Assembly (NCBI GenBank): GCA_013178155.1
Contig: JABLXH010000015.1
Location: 1 to 64,000 of the forward strand
Reading direction: 5' to 3'
DNA: 64,000 nt
Source of the DNA: Armatimonadota bacterium
GTDB lineage: Bacteria > Armatimonadota > Zipacnadia > Zipacnadales > UBA11051
In this document: one piece after another, positions 11,809 to 59,895 of the stretch
Layout: the number at the start of each line of letters is the position of its first letter
Numbering within the stretch: the stretch's first letter is position 1
Translations under genes and position numbers: made by a program
Notes under the pieces: generated by a model
Database searches by the model: none
Told to the model about the DNA's origin: nothing
Seen by the model: the letters and a program-made list of their open reading frames with translations, nothing else

Positions 11809-12972
11809 CTAACCTCTGATCAGCGCGACGCCCTCGCGCACCGCGCCAGTGATGTACTCCAGATCGTCGTCAGTCATCAGCGGATGGATGCTCAGGCAAA
11901 ACAGACGCTCGCCCGTGAGTTCGCTGACGGGGATGGAAGCGGGGTCAAAGCCTAGGGTGGCCAGGTAGGCGTTGTGCTTGTACGTCGGGTTGTTCATGAC
12001 CACCGTGCCCACGCCGCGCTCGTTTTGCAGCCAGTCCATCAACTGCTGCCGCTTGCCGGTGGCCCAGTCCTCGGGCACCATGATGGTGTAGCCGTAGTAG
12101 ACGTGATAGTAGCCTCCGGGCTCCGAGGGAAGGGTAAGCTCCGGGATGTCGGAGAGGAGTTCCGTCATCTTGTGGGCGCGGTCGCGGCGACGAGCGTTCA
12201 TCTCATCCAGCCGGCGGAGCTGGATCAGACCCACCGCGCCCTGCAGGCGAATCATACGGTAGTTAGTGCCCCATAGCGCTTCCCCGGCCCCGAAGGAGCG
12301 ATAGGCCCGGCAACGGCGAGCCACCTCATCGTCATCGGTGGTTACCATGCCCCCCTCGCCCAGTGTGGTCATGTTCTTGCTGGTCTGAAAGGAGAAGATA
12401 TTCATCCAGCCTGCCTTGCCCACTTTGGTGCCCTTGTAGCCGCCGCCACAGGCCCGAGCGGCGTCACCGATGACCTTGGCCGGACCGTGTCGCGGGTTGG
12501 GGTGAGCCTCGGCCACCGCCTGTAGAGCGTCCATGTCGGCGGACAAACCGTTGTTATGCACCGCCAGGATGGCCCGGGTGCGGTCGGTCATGCGCTTCTC
12601 GACATCTGCCGGGTCAATGTTCATGGTTGCCGGGTCTATCTCCGCCATGACCAGCTTGGCGCCCTGGCCGAGGATCGCCAGGTGGGTTGCCGCGTAAGTG
12701 ATGGCCGGGCTAATGACCTCATCGCCGGGCTCCAGGTCCAGACACATCATGGAGGCATCCAGGCCGGTGCCGCAGGAGTTGAAGGCGATGGCGTGCTTGA
12801 CACCACAGTAAGCCGCAAAGGCCTCCTCGAACTGGCCAATCTCCGGTCCACCAAAGCCCTTGCGCCAGTCCATGGAATCGCGCATGCAGGCGACAACGGC
12901 CTCGATCTCCTCCTCGGTGTACCAGCCGCCCAGCGGGGGCAGGCTGGGATAGTTGCGATCTGCAGTGGACAT
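11809..12972 (-). CDS. DegT/DnrJ/EryC1/StrS-family PLP aminotransferase
   Basis: DAARACGGGYKGTKVGKAGWMNIFSFQTSKNMTTLGEGGMVTTDDDE, intact Schiff-base Lys. Confidence 0.9.
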   Translation of the reverse strand: MSTADRNYPSLPPLGGWYTEEEIEAVVACMRDSMDWRKGFGGPEIGQFEEAFAAYCGVKHAIAFNSCGTGLDASMMCLDLEPGDEVISPAITYAATHLAILGQGAKLVMAEIDPATMNIDPADVEKRMTDRTRAILAVHNNGLSADMDALQAVAEAHPNPRHGPAKVIGDAARACGGGYKGTKVGKAGWMNIFSFQTSKNMTTLGEGGMVTTDDDEVARRCRAYRSFGAGEALWGTNYRMIRLQGAVGLIQLRRLDEMNARRRDRAHKMTELLSDIPELTLPSEPGGYYHVYYGYTIMVPEDWATGKRQQLMDWLQNERGVGTVVMNNPTYKHNAYLATLGFDPASIPVSELTGERLFCLSIHPLMTDDDLEYITGAVREGVALIRG

Positions 12973-39051: not shown

Positions 39052-40242
39052 CTACCTCCGCTTCTTGAGTTCGTCCTCAAGATACCACCGACGCACTTCG
39101 GAGTATACGGCCGCGTACACCGACTCATCGCGGCCCACCAAGTGAGGGTCACCGTTCCTATTATCACTAGCGGTCATCACAGTGTCTACAAGGCGCTTGC
39201 CATGAGCGTCGAAGAACAGCCGCGGGTCGGTCGTCCATTGGAAGCTGTCGTCAGGTCCCGGAATGAGCAGAGCTCTGAACCCAGCGAGAACCGGGAAAGC
39301 TAGCCCCTTCTCCACTGGGTACCTGCCCTCCTTACCGATGAAGTGGTACGTCGCCACCGACTTACGCCCACGCTTCCGTCGATTGGCCTCTATAGTCTTG
39401 CCATACTTACCACGCTCACCGGTCTCATCCGGCGCGTTGTAGAGATCGGGCCACCTATACCTTATGTAGTCATAGAGTTCACACACGTCGACCGCGACAC
39501 GCGCGAGTTTTCGGTATCCCCAGCGATCTCCCGGCTCTAGCGACCAGTCCAAGCACTTGGCTGCGTTCCTATAGGCGTCAACGGGATGATCATTGTCGCT
39601 GAACCGCGTGGGATTGACACAAGTCAGCATTTGCAGGATCTCTAGGACCAGAACGGGTTCGGGGTCGTTCTCGCTAAACCGGACAAGCTTTGCCTTGTCG
39701 CCGAGCGCCTTTATCAGCCACTCGAAGCTTCCCTTCTTGTTCTCCAAGCTGAACGTCTTGAGACTCATTGAGTAGTTGCGTGCCTGAGCAATATCGAGCA
39801 GGTGTTCCTCGACACCAAGCATGATTTCCAGGCGCACGCGCTGGTCAGCCTCGTCGCGTGCAGGCATCGATTCGCTGTCCTCAACTACCACGCTCTTGAT
39901 GGAGTGAAAGGTATGTCCTCCGTCGATTATCCCATAGCGAGGATCGTCGTTAGGGATGTCAAGAACCAGCTTTGCGGTCTTGGGGTCGTAGTCCACAGAC
40001 CGCGCCGAGATCGTTATTCCCCGGTTCAGCAAATGGAAGCGCCCATCCCAACGCCGCAGCGACTCCTGTATACGCTTGACGACCGGCGTCTTCGGCTTGG
40101 GGATACGTGGGTCCGGCCCCATGTCTAGGTCATGCGGCACATCGCGGACGGATAGCAGGACGTAGTAAGTCTTGGAACCCCTAGTAAAGGGATCGGGAAT
40201 GGAGCGGACCGAATCGCTGGGAACGGAGAGGGTGTACTGCAT
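39052..40242 (-). CDS. AIPR-like (abortive infection phage resistance) protein
   Basis: FHLLNRGITISARSVDYDPKTAKLVLDIPNDDPRYGIIDGGHTFHSIK resembles the AIPR core (NNGITI ... IVNGxQT). Visibly lower GC than flanks. Confidence 0.55.
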   Translation of the reverse strand: MQYTLSVPSDSVRSIPDPFTRGSKTYYVLLSVRDVPHDLDMGPDPRIPKPKTPVVKRIQESLRRWDGRFHLLNRGITISARSVDYDPKTAKLVLDIPNDDPRYGIIDGGHTFHSIKSVVVEDSESMPARDEADQRVRLEIMLGVEEHLLDIAQARNYSMSLKTFSLENKKGSFEWLIKALGDKAKLVRFSENDPEPVLVLEILQMLTCVNPTRFSDNDHPVDAYRNAAKCLDWSLEPGDRWGYRKLARVAVDVCELYDYIRYRWPDLYNAPDETGERGKYGKTIEANRRKRGRKSVATYHFIGKEGRYPVEKGLAFPVLAGFRALLIPGPDDSFQWTTDPRLFFDAHGKRLVDTVMTASDNRNGDPHLVGRDESVYAAVYSEVRRWYLEDELKKRR

Positions 40243-42995: not shown

Positions 42996-44657
42996 ATGCC
43001 CTCTAACCCCAGGCTCGCGGCCCGCTTTGCCGGCATGAGTCCGTATCTTTTCCGGGACGTTCTCATCGGCCATGCGCGACTGACCCGCGGACAGGACGCA
43101 CCGCTGCTGGACGCCACCCGCGAGGCACCAAACTGGCAGCAACGCGACGTACAGCTGGCCTGGCATGTGCTGGGGCTTTACTGCGACTACGTCTACGGCG
43201 TAGTGGGCGATCCCGGGAACGTTCGGCTGCTGCCCAGGGCTGCGCCGCTGGACCATACCGCCGCCTTTGGCCGGTTCGCCGACGGCCTGATGGACCTCCG
43301 TGAGAGCCTGGCTGTCGGCATAGACTTCCTGTCGGAGCTGTGGCCCTATCTGGCCCAGAAGGTGCTCCCTGACCGCACGGAAAGCGAGATCATTGACGCC
43401 TTCACTCAGGCCATGAGCGGGGGCATCTACCCTTCGCCGCCCACCCTGGAGTTCGTCACACCCATCGTCCGGCGGTACCTGGCTGGCAAGCTCTTCCGCG
43501 GCGATACCAGCCTGGCCGACGAGTTCAGCGTCCACCTCACAGCGGGCGCCAGCGCTGGCTGGGTCCAGATTGCCCAGACGCTGACGGCCAACCACCTGCT
43601 CACCCCGGGCGACAAAGTTGCCCTCTTCTTGCCCACCTATCAGCCGCTCGCGGAGCTGTTCGCCCGCCAACTTGGCTGTGAGATCGTCGGCCTGGTCAGC
43701 GACCCTGGGGGGAGCTCTGCGCCGGATGCGGAGGACCTGGCGAAGCTGTCTGACCCCGCGGTGAAGCTGCTGGCGTTCATGTCGCCAAATGACCCGACCT
43801 CGGTCGCCATGGCCCCCGAGACTCTGGCCCGTCTGGAGCCCCTGGTGCGCAGCCGCCCCGACCTGCTGGTAGTCGCCGACTATTCGGGCGCCAATCTCCT
43901 GTCCAGCCCCCGGTTGACCGCCCTGCAGCGCTGGCCACGACAGACCATCGGGCTCTACGGCTTTGCTCACGACTTCGGCCTGGCCGGGGCGCGTCTGGGG
44001 GCCGTGGTCATACATCGTGAATGCGCTGCCGACCGCTTGCTCGCCAACCTGCCGGCCGAAACGCAGGCCCGGGTCAGCGCCCGTTACGCCGGCCGACTCG
44101 TACAGCCCACGACGGCCTCCTTCCAGGCGCGCCTCACCGAGGAATCCGCCGGAGTGGCCTTCGGACATCTGGCGGGGCTTGCCCCTGCCCTGCAGGTGCT
44201 GCTTTGTCTCTGCGCTTCCTACGAGGCTATCGCGGAGCCGGCCGGAGCCACCTACCACGAATGGGTGCGACAGGAGCTCAGTCGGCGTCGCGCCGCCCTC
44301 TACCGGGGACTGGGAGGATCGCCGCCGGACCTGGGGCCCGCGGCCGCAAATCATTGCGTGCTGCTGGACCTGCAGACTTTGGCCCTGGGCGTGGACCCTG
44401 CGCTCGCCATCGGCTTGGAGCATACTGACATCTGGACCGCGCTGCTGCACCTCGCGCACGCCACCGGTGTCATCGTCATGCCCGCCCTGCCTTGCGGAGC
44501 GGGGCTGTGGTCTGTGCGGATACCCCTGGTGGGCCTGGGCGAGAGCGACTGCCTGGCCACGGGCAAGGCCATCCGGTCTTGTCTGCAGGCGCTGGGCACC
44601 GACACGCCGTGCCCGGCTTGCGATGATCTGAACCGCCTGGGGGCTTCAGAGGACTGA
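42996..44657 (+). CDS. Aspartate 4-decarboxylase (AspD)-like fold-type-I PLP protein with atypical active site
   Basis: DATREAPNWQ, MSGGIYPSPP, HLTAGASAGWVQIAQTLTANHLLTPGDKVALFLPTYQP, FMSPNDPTSVAM, YGFAHDFGLAGARLG. Confidence 0.65.
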   Translation: MPSNPRLAARFAGMSPYLFRDVLIGHARLTRGQDAPLLDATREAPNWQQRDVQLAWHVLGLYCDYVYGVVGDPGNVRLLPRAAPLDHTAAFGRFADGLMDLRESLAVGIDFLSELWPYLAQKVLPDRTESEIIDAFTQAMSGGIYPSPPTLEFVTPIVRRYLAGKLFRGDTSLADEFSVHLTAGASAGWVQIAQTLTANHLLTPGDKVALFLPTYQPLAELFARQLGCEIVGLVSDPGGSSAPDAEDLAKLSDPAVKLLAFMSPNDPTSVAMAPETLARLEPLVRSRPDLLVVADYSGANLLSSPRLTALQRWPRQTIGLYGFAHDFGLAGARLGAVVIHRECAADRLLANLPAETQARVSARYAGRLVQPTTASFQARLTEESAGVAFGHLAGLAPALQVLLCLCASYEAIAEPAGATYHEWVRQELSRRRAALYRGLGGSPPDLGPAAANHCVLLDLQTLALGVDPALAIGLEHTDIWTALLHLAHATGVIVMPALPCGAGLWSVRIPLVGLGESDCLATGKAIRSCLQALGTDTPCPACDDLNRLGASED

Positions 44658-44755: not shown

Positions 44756-44783
44756 TTGACAGGCAGGCGGCGTTTGCTATTAT
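44756..44783 (+). promoter_or_regulatory. Strong sigma70-like promoter TTGACA-N16-TATTAT
   Basis: -35 at 44756-44761, -10 at 44778-44783. Confidence 0.75.
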
Positions 44784-44789
44784 GCACAC

Positions 44790-44889
44790 GGACAGAGCCT
44801 AAATACAGGCATGAACGGTCCTTGCGACCGTTTTGTGCCGGGCCAGCCACATGCGGCCACCCCCCGGGACGCGCGCTGGCCCGTTTTTT
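44790..44889 (+). ncRNA. Candidate ~100-nt structured RNA (sRNA or cis-regulatory attenuator) ending at intrinsic terminator
   Basis: Hairpins GCCT-aaatac-AGGC (44797-44810) and AACGGTC-cttgc-GACCGTT (44814-44832), then CGGGCCAGC...GCTGGCCCG-TTTTTT. Confidence 0.5.
44839..44889 (+). terminator. Intrinsic terminator with T6
   Basis: CGGGCCAGC (44839-44847) pairs with GCTGGCCCG (44875-44883), followed by TTTTTT. Confidence 0.7.
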
Positions 44890-45016
44890 GTTAGCGTCAT
44901 GCATCTGTATAACTCCACTATTATATAACCCACGTCCAGAGCCTTGGCTCCGCCCTCTCCGGAAGGTATCCATCACCTCGGTGCCGAAGTCTGTATGGCC
45001 CAAGGGAGGGTTAGCC

Positions 45017-57927: not shown

Positions 57928-59895
57928 TTAGGGCCAGGGGAAAAACGGCGCGGGGACGCGCCAGATGCTGGCAATGGCGGCCCAGATGACGGCCAGCAGG
58001 AACTCCCCGAGAATCAGACCCAGGAAGAAGGGCCGCAGGTTCAGATAGACCTTCATGCCTCCGTAGCGGAGGATGACCGACTTGACGATCCAGGCAACGA
58101 GGATCGGCCACCAGAAGACGATCATGCTCCAGGAGCCCGAGAGCGCGAAACCCAGGGGCGAGAACGGCCACCAGACGTGCTGGGTGCGCATGTAGGCCAG
58201 GAAGGTCGCAAACCCGATGCCGGCCAGGAAGAAGATGGGTAGCCGGAAGTCGTACTTGTCAGGCGTCTCCATGACCGGCTGGAAGTAGGTGAAGCCGGCG
58301 AAGGCATTCCACTTGTAGGAGTAACCGTAGAGTGTCACCGCGCCCTTGTGGTAGGGCAGGACGAGCTGGATGATGCCTCCCGCTATCAGCGCGACGCCGA
58401 AGGCAGCCGCCACCGACCAGAAGAGCTGACGCCGGTCCAGCTTCGTCAGGTCAGCCATCTTCAGGCCGTCAAGGAACGTGGACAGCAGATTGCCGCGCAG
58501 ATCGCGGGTGAAGACAGCATCTACCATGGCCAGCGCCGTCAGGGTGCTGCCACCGAGGGCGCGCTGGGTGGTGAACACGCGGATCAGGTCCACGGGCCGG
58601 AAGCTGGTCTCGGTCATCAGCATCCCGGCTTCCGAGACACTGCGGGCCATGACCAGCACGACGAGGAACAGAAAGACCCCGATCTCCACTGCGGCCATCC
58701 ACAGGCTCATGCCCAGCAGATGGCACCAGTACACCGCGGTGATGACGGAGATGATCAGCCCGAAGACTGCGGTGCGCGGCGAAAGGAACTCCGAGCGCCC
58801 CTCGGCGGGCTGGTTGCTCACGGCGCGCCGCCAGAAGTCTCGCAGGTGCGGCAGGGCTGACTTCACCAGGTACGCGCTCAGAACCACGTAGGCTCCGGTG
58901 ACGTGGTAGCCATTCCAGAGGCTGGTGGGGTACAGCGACATGGGCTGCAGGCTCTGACCAAACAGGGAGAAGACGATGTTTTCGGCCCGGCAGAGCAGGA
59001 ACATGGACCACAGCGAGACCAGAACCTGAGAGGGAAGGAAGTAGCTGAAGCCGACGGCCGCCAAGGAGCAGTAGGCCACCGTGTAGTCCAGGTCAGTCCA
59101 CGGCTTGGCGTGCATGTACTGGTTCAGCGGATACTGCAGCGGGATCATGGGAATGGCGGGATACAGGCCGTGCAGACCGTTGAGCGTGAAGACGAAGGCC
59201 GGGATGGAAAAGCCCAGCCAGGTGAGACGGTTGCGGAGGAAGGAGTCCGGCACCGACTGGTCGCGCGAAAGCTCGACCGGGAGCTGCACCAGCGGAAAAC
59301 TGAGTTTCTCGTTATCCACCCACTGCCGGCGCAGGATGGCCGCCAGGCAGGCGTAGGCAAAGGTAAGGGCCAGGATGACCACGAGCCAGGCGGCGATAGG
59401 GCCCAGCCAGGGCCTCCAGGGGATGCTGCCATACGGCGGCAGGCCCTCGTAGAAGTCCACGACCAGCTTCTGACGACCCACCCCCTTGACGTCGAAGGGG
59501 ACCGCCCACTGCGGAATATGCTGGTAGTAAGTCTTCTCCCAGTGATTGGCCTCAGTGGTGTGATAGTTGACCGCGACGAGGGTGGGGAGCCAGCGCTCCA
59601 TCAGCCCCCGGGAGGTGGTCAGCGCGGCCACCAGGACCATCATGTAGATGACGATGATCTCATGGGCCGCCAGGCCAAGCCGACTTGGGACGGCCCGCAC
59701 GGCCATGTTCAGCAAGACCAACAGGAAGAACAGCCCGATGGCGGCAGGCGCGAACTGGCAGATGGCGATCTGGATGGAGGTGACCACCAGTTCGGCCCAA
59801 CTGACAACAAAACACACCGCCGCCGCGCCGATGAGCCCGATCACGATGGCGACCGGGCGAACGCGGTAGAGGGTCAGCGTGGTGCTCTCCGCCAT
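57928..59895 (-). CDS. DUF6785-like multi-pass membrane protein
   Basis: 655 aa, about 14 hydrophobic segments; parallels the partial protein at 1-691. Confidence 0.75.
   Translation of the reverse strand: MAESTTLTLYRVRPVAIVIGLIGAAAVCFVVSWAELVVTSIQIAICQFAPAAIGLFFLLVLLNMAVRAVPSRLGLAAHEIIVIYMMVLVAALTTSRGLMERWLPTLVAVNYHTTEANHWEKTYYQHIPQWAVPFDVKGVGRQKLVVDFYEGLPPYGSIPWRPWLGPIAAWLVVILALTFAYACLAAILRRQWVDNEKLSFPLVQLPVELSRDQSVPDSFLRNRLTWLGFSIPAFVFTLNGLHGLYPAIPMIPLQYPLNQYMHAKPWTDLDYTVAYCSLAAVGFSYFLPSQVLVSLWSMFLLCRAENIVFSLFGQSLQPMSLYPTSLWNGYHVTGAYVVLSAYLVKSALPHLRDFWRRAVSNQPAEGRSEFLSPRTAVFGLIISVITAVYWCHLLGMSLWMAAVEIGVFLFLVVLVMARSVSEAGMLMTETSFRPVDLIRVFTTQRALGGSTLTALAMVDAVFTRDLRGNLLSTFLDGLKMADLTKLDRRQLFWSVAAAFGVALIAGGIIQLVLPYHKGAVTLYGYSYKWNAFAGFTYFQPVMETPDKYDFRLPIFFLAGIGFATFLAYMRTQHVWWPFSPLGFALSGSWSMIVFWWPILVAWIVKSVILRYGGMKVYLNLRPFFLGLILGEFLLAVIWAAIASIWRVPAPFFPWP

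Follow-up and report, generated by a model that had tools for sequence, protein, structure and literature searches.

Does a protein that keeps the fold of a pyridoxal 5'-phosphate (PLP) enzyme, and has lost the lysine that forms the Schiff base with the cofactor, still act as an enzyme? The question is raised by a gene in a 64,000-nucleotide stretch of DNA (the window) from a sediment bacterium of the Armatimonadota, class Zipacnadia, whose product carries histidine, His325, at the lysine position; one genome carries the His325 protein. In nature, fold-type I proteins seldom lose the PLP lysine, and those that do are informative; the known cases are switches to histidine chemistry (ColD/E1) or subunits and pseudoenzymes (SPT1). 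A limited search of the open-access literature returned no report of such a loss in the aspartate 4-decarboxylase (AspD) branch, and exact phrases on lysine-less aminotransferases likewise returned nothing.

The gene and the fold of its product

The gene is an intact open reading frame of 553 codons, from ATG to stop, with an AGGAG Shine-Dalgarno-like stretch immediately 5' of the ATG and a normal codon-position GC composition (0.72/0.51/0.81). Its product matches the Pfam profile Aminotran_1_2 (PF00155) at 42.4 bits, above the gathering cut-off of 19.7, and this is the only Pfam match at E<=1. The nearest NCBIfam models are those of AspD (TIGR03801 and NF006755), with 211/435 and 227/321 bits, below both equivalog cut-offs. 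The sequences of the AspD crystal structures 2zy2 and 3fdd align end to end with the protein (E ~1e-47). An AlphaFold2 model built from 14 sequences reached a pLDDT of 84.3 and a pTM of 0.86, and a Foldseek search with this model returned AspD entries as top matches, with TM-scores of 0.79-0.81 (query) and 0.84-0.87 (target) over ~500-550 columns. The N-terminal and C-terminal extensions of AspD are present as well (TM 0.81/0.87). As modeled, the window protein is a full-length AspD-fold protein, and the label 'AspD-like' in the initial annotation is right for the fold, although the whole clade to which the protein belongs fails the tests for AspD itself.

We rejected AspD identity for the window protein on account of the absent lysine, the scores below the cut-offs and the absence of the AspT antiporter family (PF06826) from 41/41 genomes of the order; aspT adjoins aspD in five reference plasmid loci. 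What a catalytic class I/II aminotransferase (PF00155) possesses, a lysine together with Asn and Tyr contacting O3' of the cofactor, is likewise missing (K325H, N266D, Y298G).

Table 1. Position of the gene and of its active-site codons in the window.
Feature	Coordinates	Strand	Basis
AspD-fold PLP-family protein, 553 aa, without Schiff-base Lys	42996..44657	+	ORF, profiles, alignment, model
Arg42, AspD Arg37 position, retained	43119..43121	+	alignment
Asp266, GAC, replacing invariant Asn (AAT Asn194 equivalent)	43791..43793	+	alignment
Asp295, PLP pyridine-N1 Asp (AAT Asp222 equivalent), retained	43878..43880	+	alignment
Gly298, GGC, replacing invariant Tyr (AAT Tyr225 equivalent)	43887..43889	+	alignment
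Ala324-His325, GCT CAC, replacing invariant Ser-Lys (Schiff-base Lys; AAT Lys258 / AspD Lys315 equivalent)	43965..43970	+	alignment
Arg333, PLP-phosphate Arg (AAT Arg266 equivalent), retained	43992..43994	+	alignment
Arg508, alpha-carboxylate Arg (AAT Arg386 equivalent), retained	44517..44519	+	alignment

Active-site residues lost and kept

The window motif YGFAHDFGLAGARLG aligns with YSFSKYFGATGWRLG of AspD (2zy2, 3fdd), and His325 (CAC, 43968-43970) falls on the lysine of both structures. The Zipacnadia homologues read YSVSKDFGLAGxRLG or YAPSKDFGLAGxRIG here, and 13/13 contain SKDFGLAG or SKDLGLVG, with SPGNP and DYVY, and keep the lysine. The initial annotation had placed His325 at the Schiff-base position and had pointed to drift in two more motifs, NPxNPT (read as SPNDPTS) and DxxY; all three observations hold against AspD and the 13 homologues. 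The N266D change is real because SPNDP aligns with SPGNP of the homologues and NPSNP of AspD, and the alignment of ADYSG with DYVY (homologues) and DDVY (AspD) indicates that the tyrosine has become Gly298 with the aspartate kept. In aspartate aminotransferase, the O3' of PLP is contacted by Asn194 and Tyr225.

The lysine, the serine before it, the asparagine and the tyrosine are identical in 21/21 other sequences (the 13 homologues and eight AspD references, seven from plasmid records plus 3fdd), and all four are changed only in the window protein (K325H, S324A, N266D, Y298G). Given this invariance, the alignment indicates that the loss of four residues is more than chance. The protein has six lysines (122, 165, 207, 250, 257 and 524), all outside the active-site motifs, and we discarded an alternative Schiff-base lysine on these grounds; a conserved lysine elsewhere, named by the initial annotation as evidence that would count against it, was not found. 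A sequencing slip or frameshift artefact is also unlikely, since the flanking residues stay in frame in the alignment and the changes in several codons involve two or more bases; starting from the usual codons, at least two base changes are needed for K to H and as many for Y to G.

Other parts of the site are preserved. Compared with AspD (2zy2-2zy5, 3fdd), the window protein preserves the positions of R37 and Y134, of the N1-Asp, and of the arginines for the phosphate and the carboxylate. In its own numbering R42, Y145, H391 and R379 are kept, and G184 and R333 remain in the phosphate cup. The initial annotation stated that the PLP aspartate and both substrate-arginine contexts are kept. D295, R333 and R508 are indeed retained, but the arginine of GARLG is the PLP-phosphate arginine, and only R508 (WSVRIPL) is the substrate-carboxylate arginine. 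A further difference from AspD lies at Arg487, the active-site arginine mutated in 2zy5: this position holds Leu498 in the window protein and Pro or Glu in the homologues, and Val, Thr, Lys and Gly are also seen in AspD-annotated sequences, so the arginine is not strictly defining. As judged by alignment, then, the residues that would form and tune the internal aldimine (positions Lys325, Ser324, Asn266 and Tyr298) are absent, and those contacting the phosphate, the ring nitrogen and the carboxylate remain. At positions otherwise universal in the relatives, the window protein has gained Asp266, His325, His453 and Cys500 (from Asn, Lys, Tyr and Phe, respectively).

Relatives and rate of evolution

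Searching 291 genomes of the phylum yielded 13 clear homologues, with 39-43% identity in the search and 37-42% over alignment A1. All belong to the order of the window, where they come from a single genus of its own family and from a second family. The protein family is patchily present, in 14/41 genomes of the order; the same 13 loci occur in records named Armatimonadota, Candidatus Zipacnadia and candidate division WS1. The 14 Armatimonadota proteins group together apart from AspD (support 100/100) and have a D-F-G-L-A-G signature and features of the C-terminus in common; this clade is so far known from one order of Armatimonadota. The 13 homologues too score below the AspD equivalog cut-offs; by these curated criteria the whole Zipacnadia/WS1 clade is not AspD. 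Its lysine-bearing members sit in two distinct conserved neighbourhoods (L033, L034, L037, L039 and L045; L035, L036, L038 and L040-L044), both different from that of the window gene.

No second species with the same four changes was found in the phylum search (291 genomes) or in the scans of GTDB genomes, in which window-specific peptides retrieved no relative and the family alignment retrieved only the 13 loci already known. The search of viral contigs found no homologues. Retention of the lysine in orthologs had been listed by the initial annotation as a refutation; the 13 relatives do retain it, which shows that the loss is lineage-specific and does not undo the observation. The four changes are thus best read, among the sequences searched, as derived in the window lineage and not as marks of a conserved histidine family. 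ThrS encoded on the same contig is 83% identical to that of a same-family genome and 68-72% to those of the genus carrying homologues, which fits the lineage.

In the tree the window protein stands on a branch by itself (length 1.08), and its grouping with the same-family proteins is weakly supported (76/52). Its patristic distance to AspD (4.89) falls inside the range of the lysine-bearing relatives (4.51-5.08), indicating no overall acceleration. By contrast, of the columns conserved between AspD and both other lineages, 28% are lost in the window protein versus 9-18% in the relatives, measured alike. Loss of conserved columns is therefore about twofold in excess, and constraint has shifted locally. 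Changes at 13/43 universal sites have a joint P of at most ~0.004 under neutral drift without any stop, a count that overstates the contrast owing to the long window branch and that the matched comparison reduces to the twofold excess. The figures for the changed protein come from the single sequence that carries the changes.

Genome context and possible functions

In the related genus, the gene comes after a block of thioesterase-like, RqcH-like and metallophosphatase genes (names inferred from sequence). In the genome of the window this block lies on another contig, C136, and has no adjoining AspD-like gene. The window gene is instead flanked by a divergent glycosyltransferase-2/radical-SAM pair and by a glycoside hydrolase (MGH1-like) with ABC sugar permeases. 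We discarded an operon-based assignment: the glycosyltransferase upstream is divergent, the hydrolase downstream is preceded by a promoter-like site of its own (44756-44783), and the neighbours thus indicate no pathway. This site belongs to an element at 44756-44895 (+) in which a strong promoter-like sequence, TTGACA-16-TATTAT (11/12), precedes ~100 nt of structured GC-rich sequence that ends in a stem and T6, 5' of the hydrolase gene; the element has no Rfam match, is single-copy in the genome and is a candidate attenuated leader or small RNA. Elsewhere in the window, positions 57928-59895 (-) encode a member of a DUF6785/DUF6784 membrane protein family that is strongly expanded in the genome of the window, G000 (~45 matches among the matches listed). 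An AIPR-domain protein (PF10592, abortive-infection/phage-resistance type) at 39052-40242 (-) has a GC3 of 0.69, lower than its neighbours, and may be an acquired defence gene. A DegT/DnrJ/EryC1 aminotransferase at 11809-12972 (-) keeps its lysine (SFQTSKN), in contrast to the His325 protein.

The gene could have been recently inactivated and be in early decay, with no stops or frameshifts yet. This would account for the loss of universally conserved catalytic residues, the position outside the conserved neighbourhood of related genomes and the patchy spread, but we consider it unlikely: the 553-codon frame is intact, neither the overall rate nor the codon-position composition is unusual, and neutral drift sufficient to remove 13/43 universal sites goes far beyond what is compatible with an uninterrupted frame, although a relaxed but non-zero constraint may act. 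Somewhat less likely still is a PLP/PMP enzyme in which PMP would be bound non-covalently and His325 would act as general acid/base in dehydration, elimination or single-turnover transamination. His-assisted chemistry is conceivable by analogy, as the engineered aspartate aminotransferase K258H (Malashkevich et al. 1995) reportedly retains catalytic activity. A natural precedent is offered by ColD/E1, fold-type I, DegT-family 3-dehydratases with histidine at the same position, in which Lys to His alone is the main change from aminotransferases (PMC8987622). The window protein matches them in the exact placement of His, and it retains its N1-Asp, phosphate Arg and carboxylate Arg; however, it has also lost the pre-lysine Ser and both residues that contact O3', Asn and Tyr, which the precedent does not call for, and 13/13 relatives keep the lysine, so the histidine belongs to no wider family among the sequences searched. 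We also rejected DegT membership, since PF00155, and not the PF01041 of ColD/E1, is the sole profile match and the protein could not be aligned meaningfully with the DegT protein encoded in the window. No nucleotide-sugar enzyme was present among the neighbours checked with Pfam, although the divergent glycosyltransferase adjoins. The analogy to ColD drawn by the initial annotation is accordingly weak.

More doubtful again is a rebuilt pocket, in which the gained Asp266, His325, His453 and Cys500 would join the retained Asp295 and His391 in a catalytic or metal-binding site of a PLP-independent or His-based, PMP-dependent enzyme. AspD forms oligomers, and the window protein might in principle be the inactive subunit of a pair that requires a lysine-bearing paralogue. 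Such an arrangement has a precedent in SPT1 (LCB1), another natural loss of the PLP lysine within an otherwise preserved fold-type I fold, which is without the PLP-binding motif and needs SPT2 in serine palmitoyltransferase (PMC6148460). A second, lysine-bearing AspD-like gene was not found in the 95.6% complete genome of the window, where the next-best matches are ordinary aminotransferases (28% over ~145 aa); the partner would have to sit in the missing ~4%, which makes this reading highly improbable. As no sibling was found in the genome, the window protein most likely acts alone rather than as the inactive subunit of a heterodimer.

We favour, with a probability of about 0.55, a lineage-specific PLP-fold pseudoenzyme or a strongly repurposed member of the AspD-like clade, which belongs to the fold-type I, class I/II aminotransferases. 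The phrase 'neofunctionalised or non-catalytic PLP protein' used by the initial annotation survives in this general form, four catalytic residues having been lost and the frame, fold and overall rate kept. Such a protein would be unable to make an internal aldimine but would still fold and assemble like AspD, and the old cofactor/substrate pocket may hold a ligand, putatively an amino acid or a keto acid, whether or not PLP or PMP is also bound non-covalently. Transamination and beta-decarboxylation would not run at enzyme-like rates, classical PLP chemistry being probably lost or very slow, and the role may be one of binding, sensing, scaffolding or a different, PLP-independent reaction.

The finding also exposes an uncharacterised, lysine-bearing AspD-like clade, and the 13 lysine-bearing relatives, together with four defined derived changes, make the protein a tractable case for testing how the chemistry of a PLP enzyme is lost or altered.
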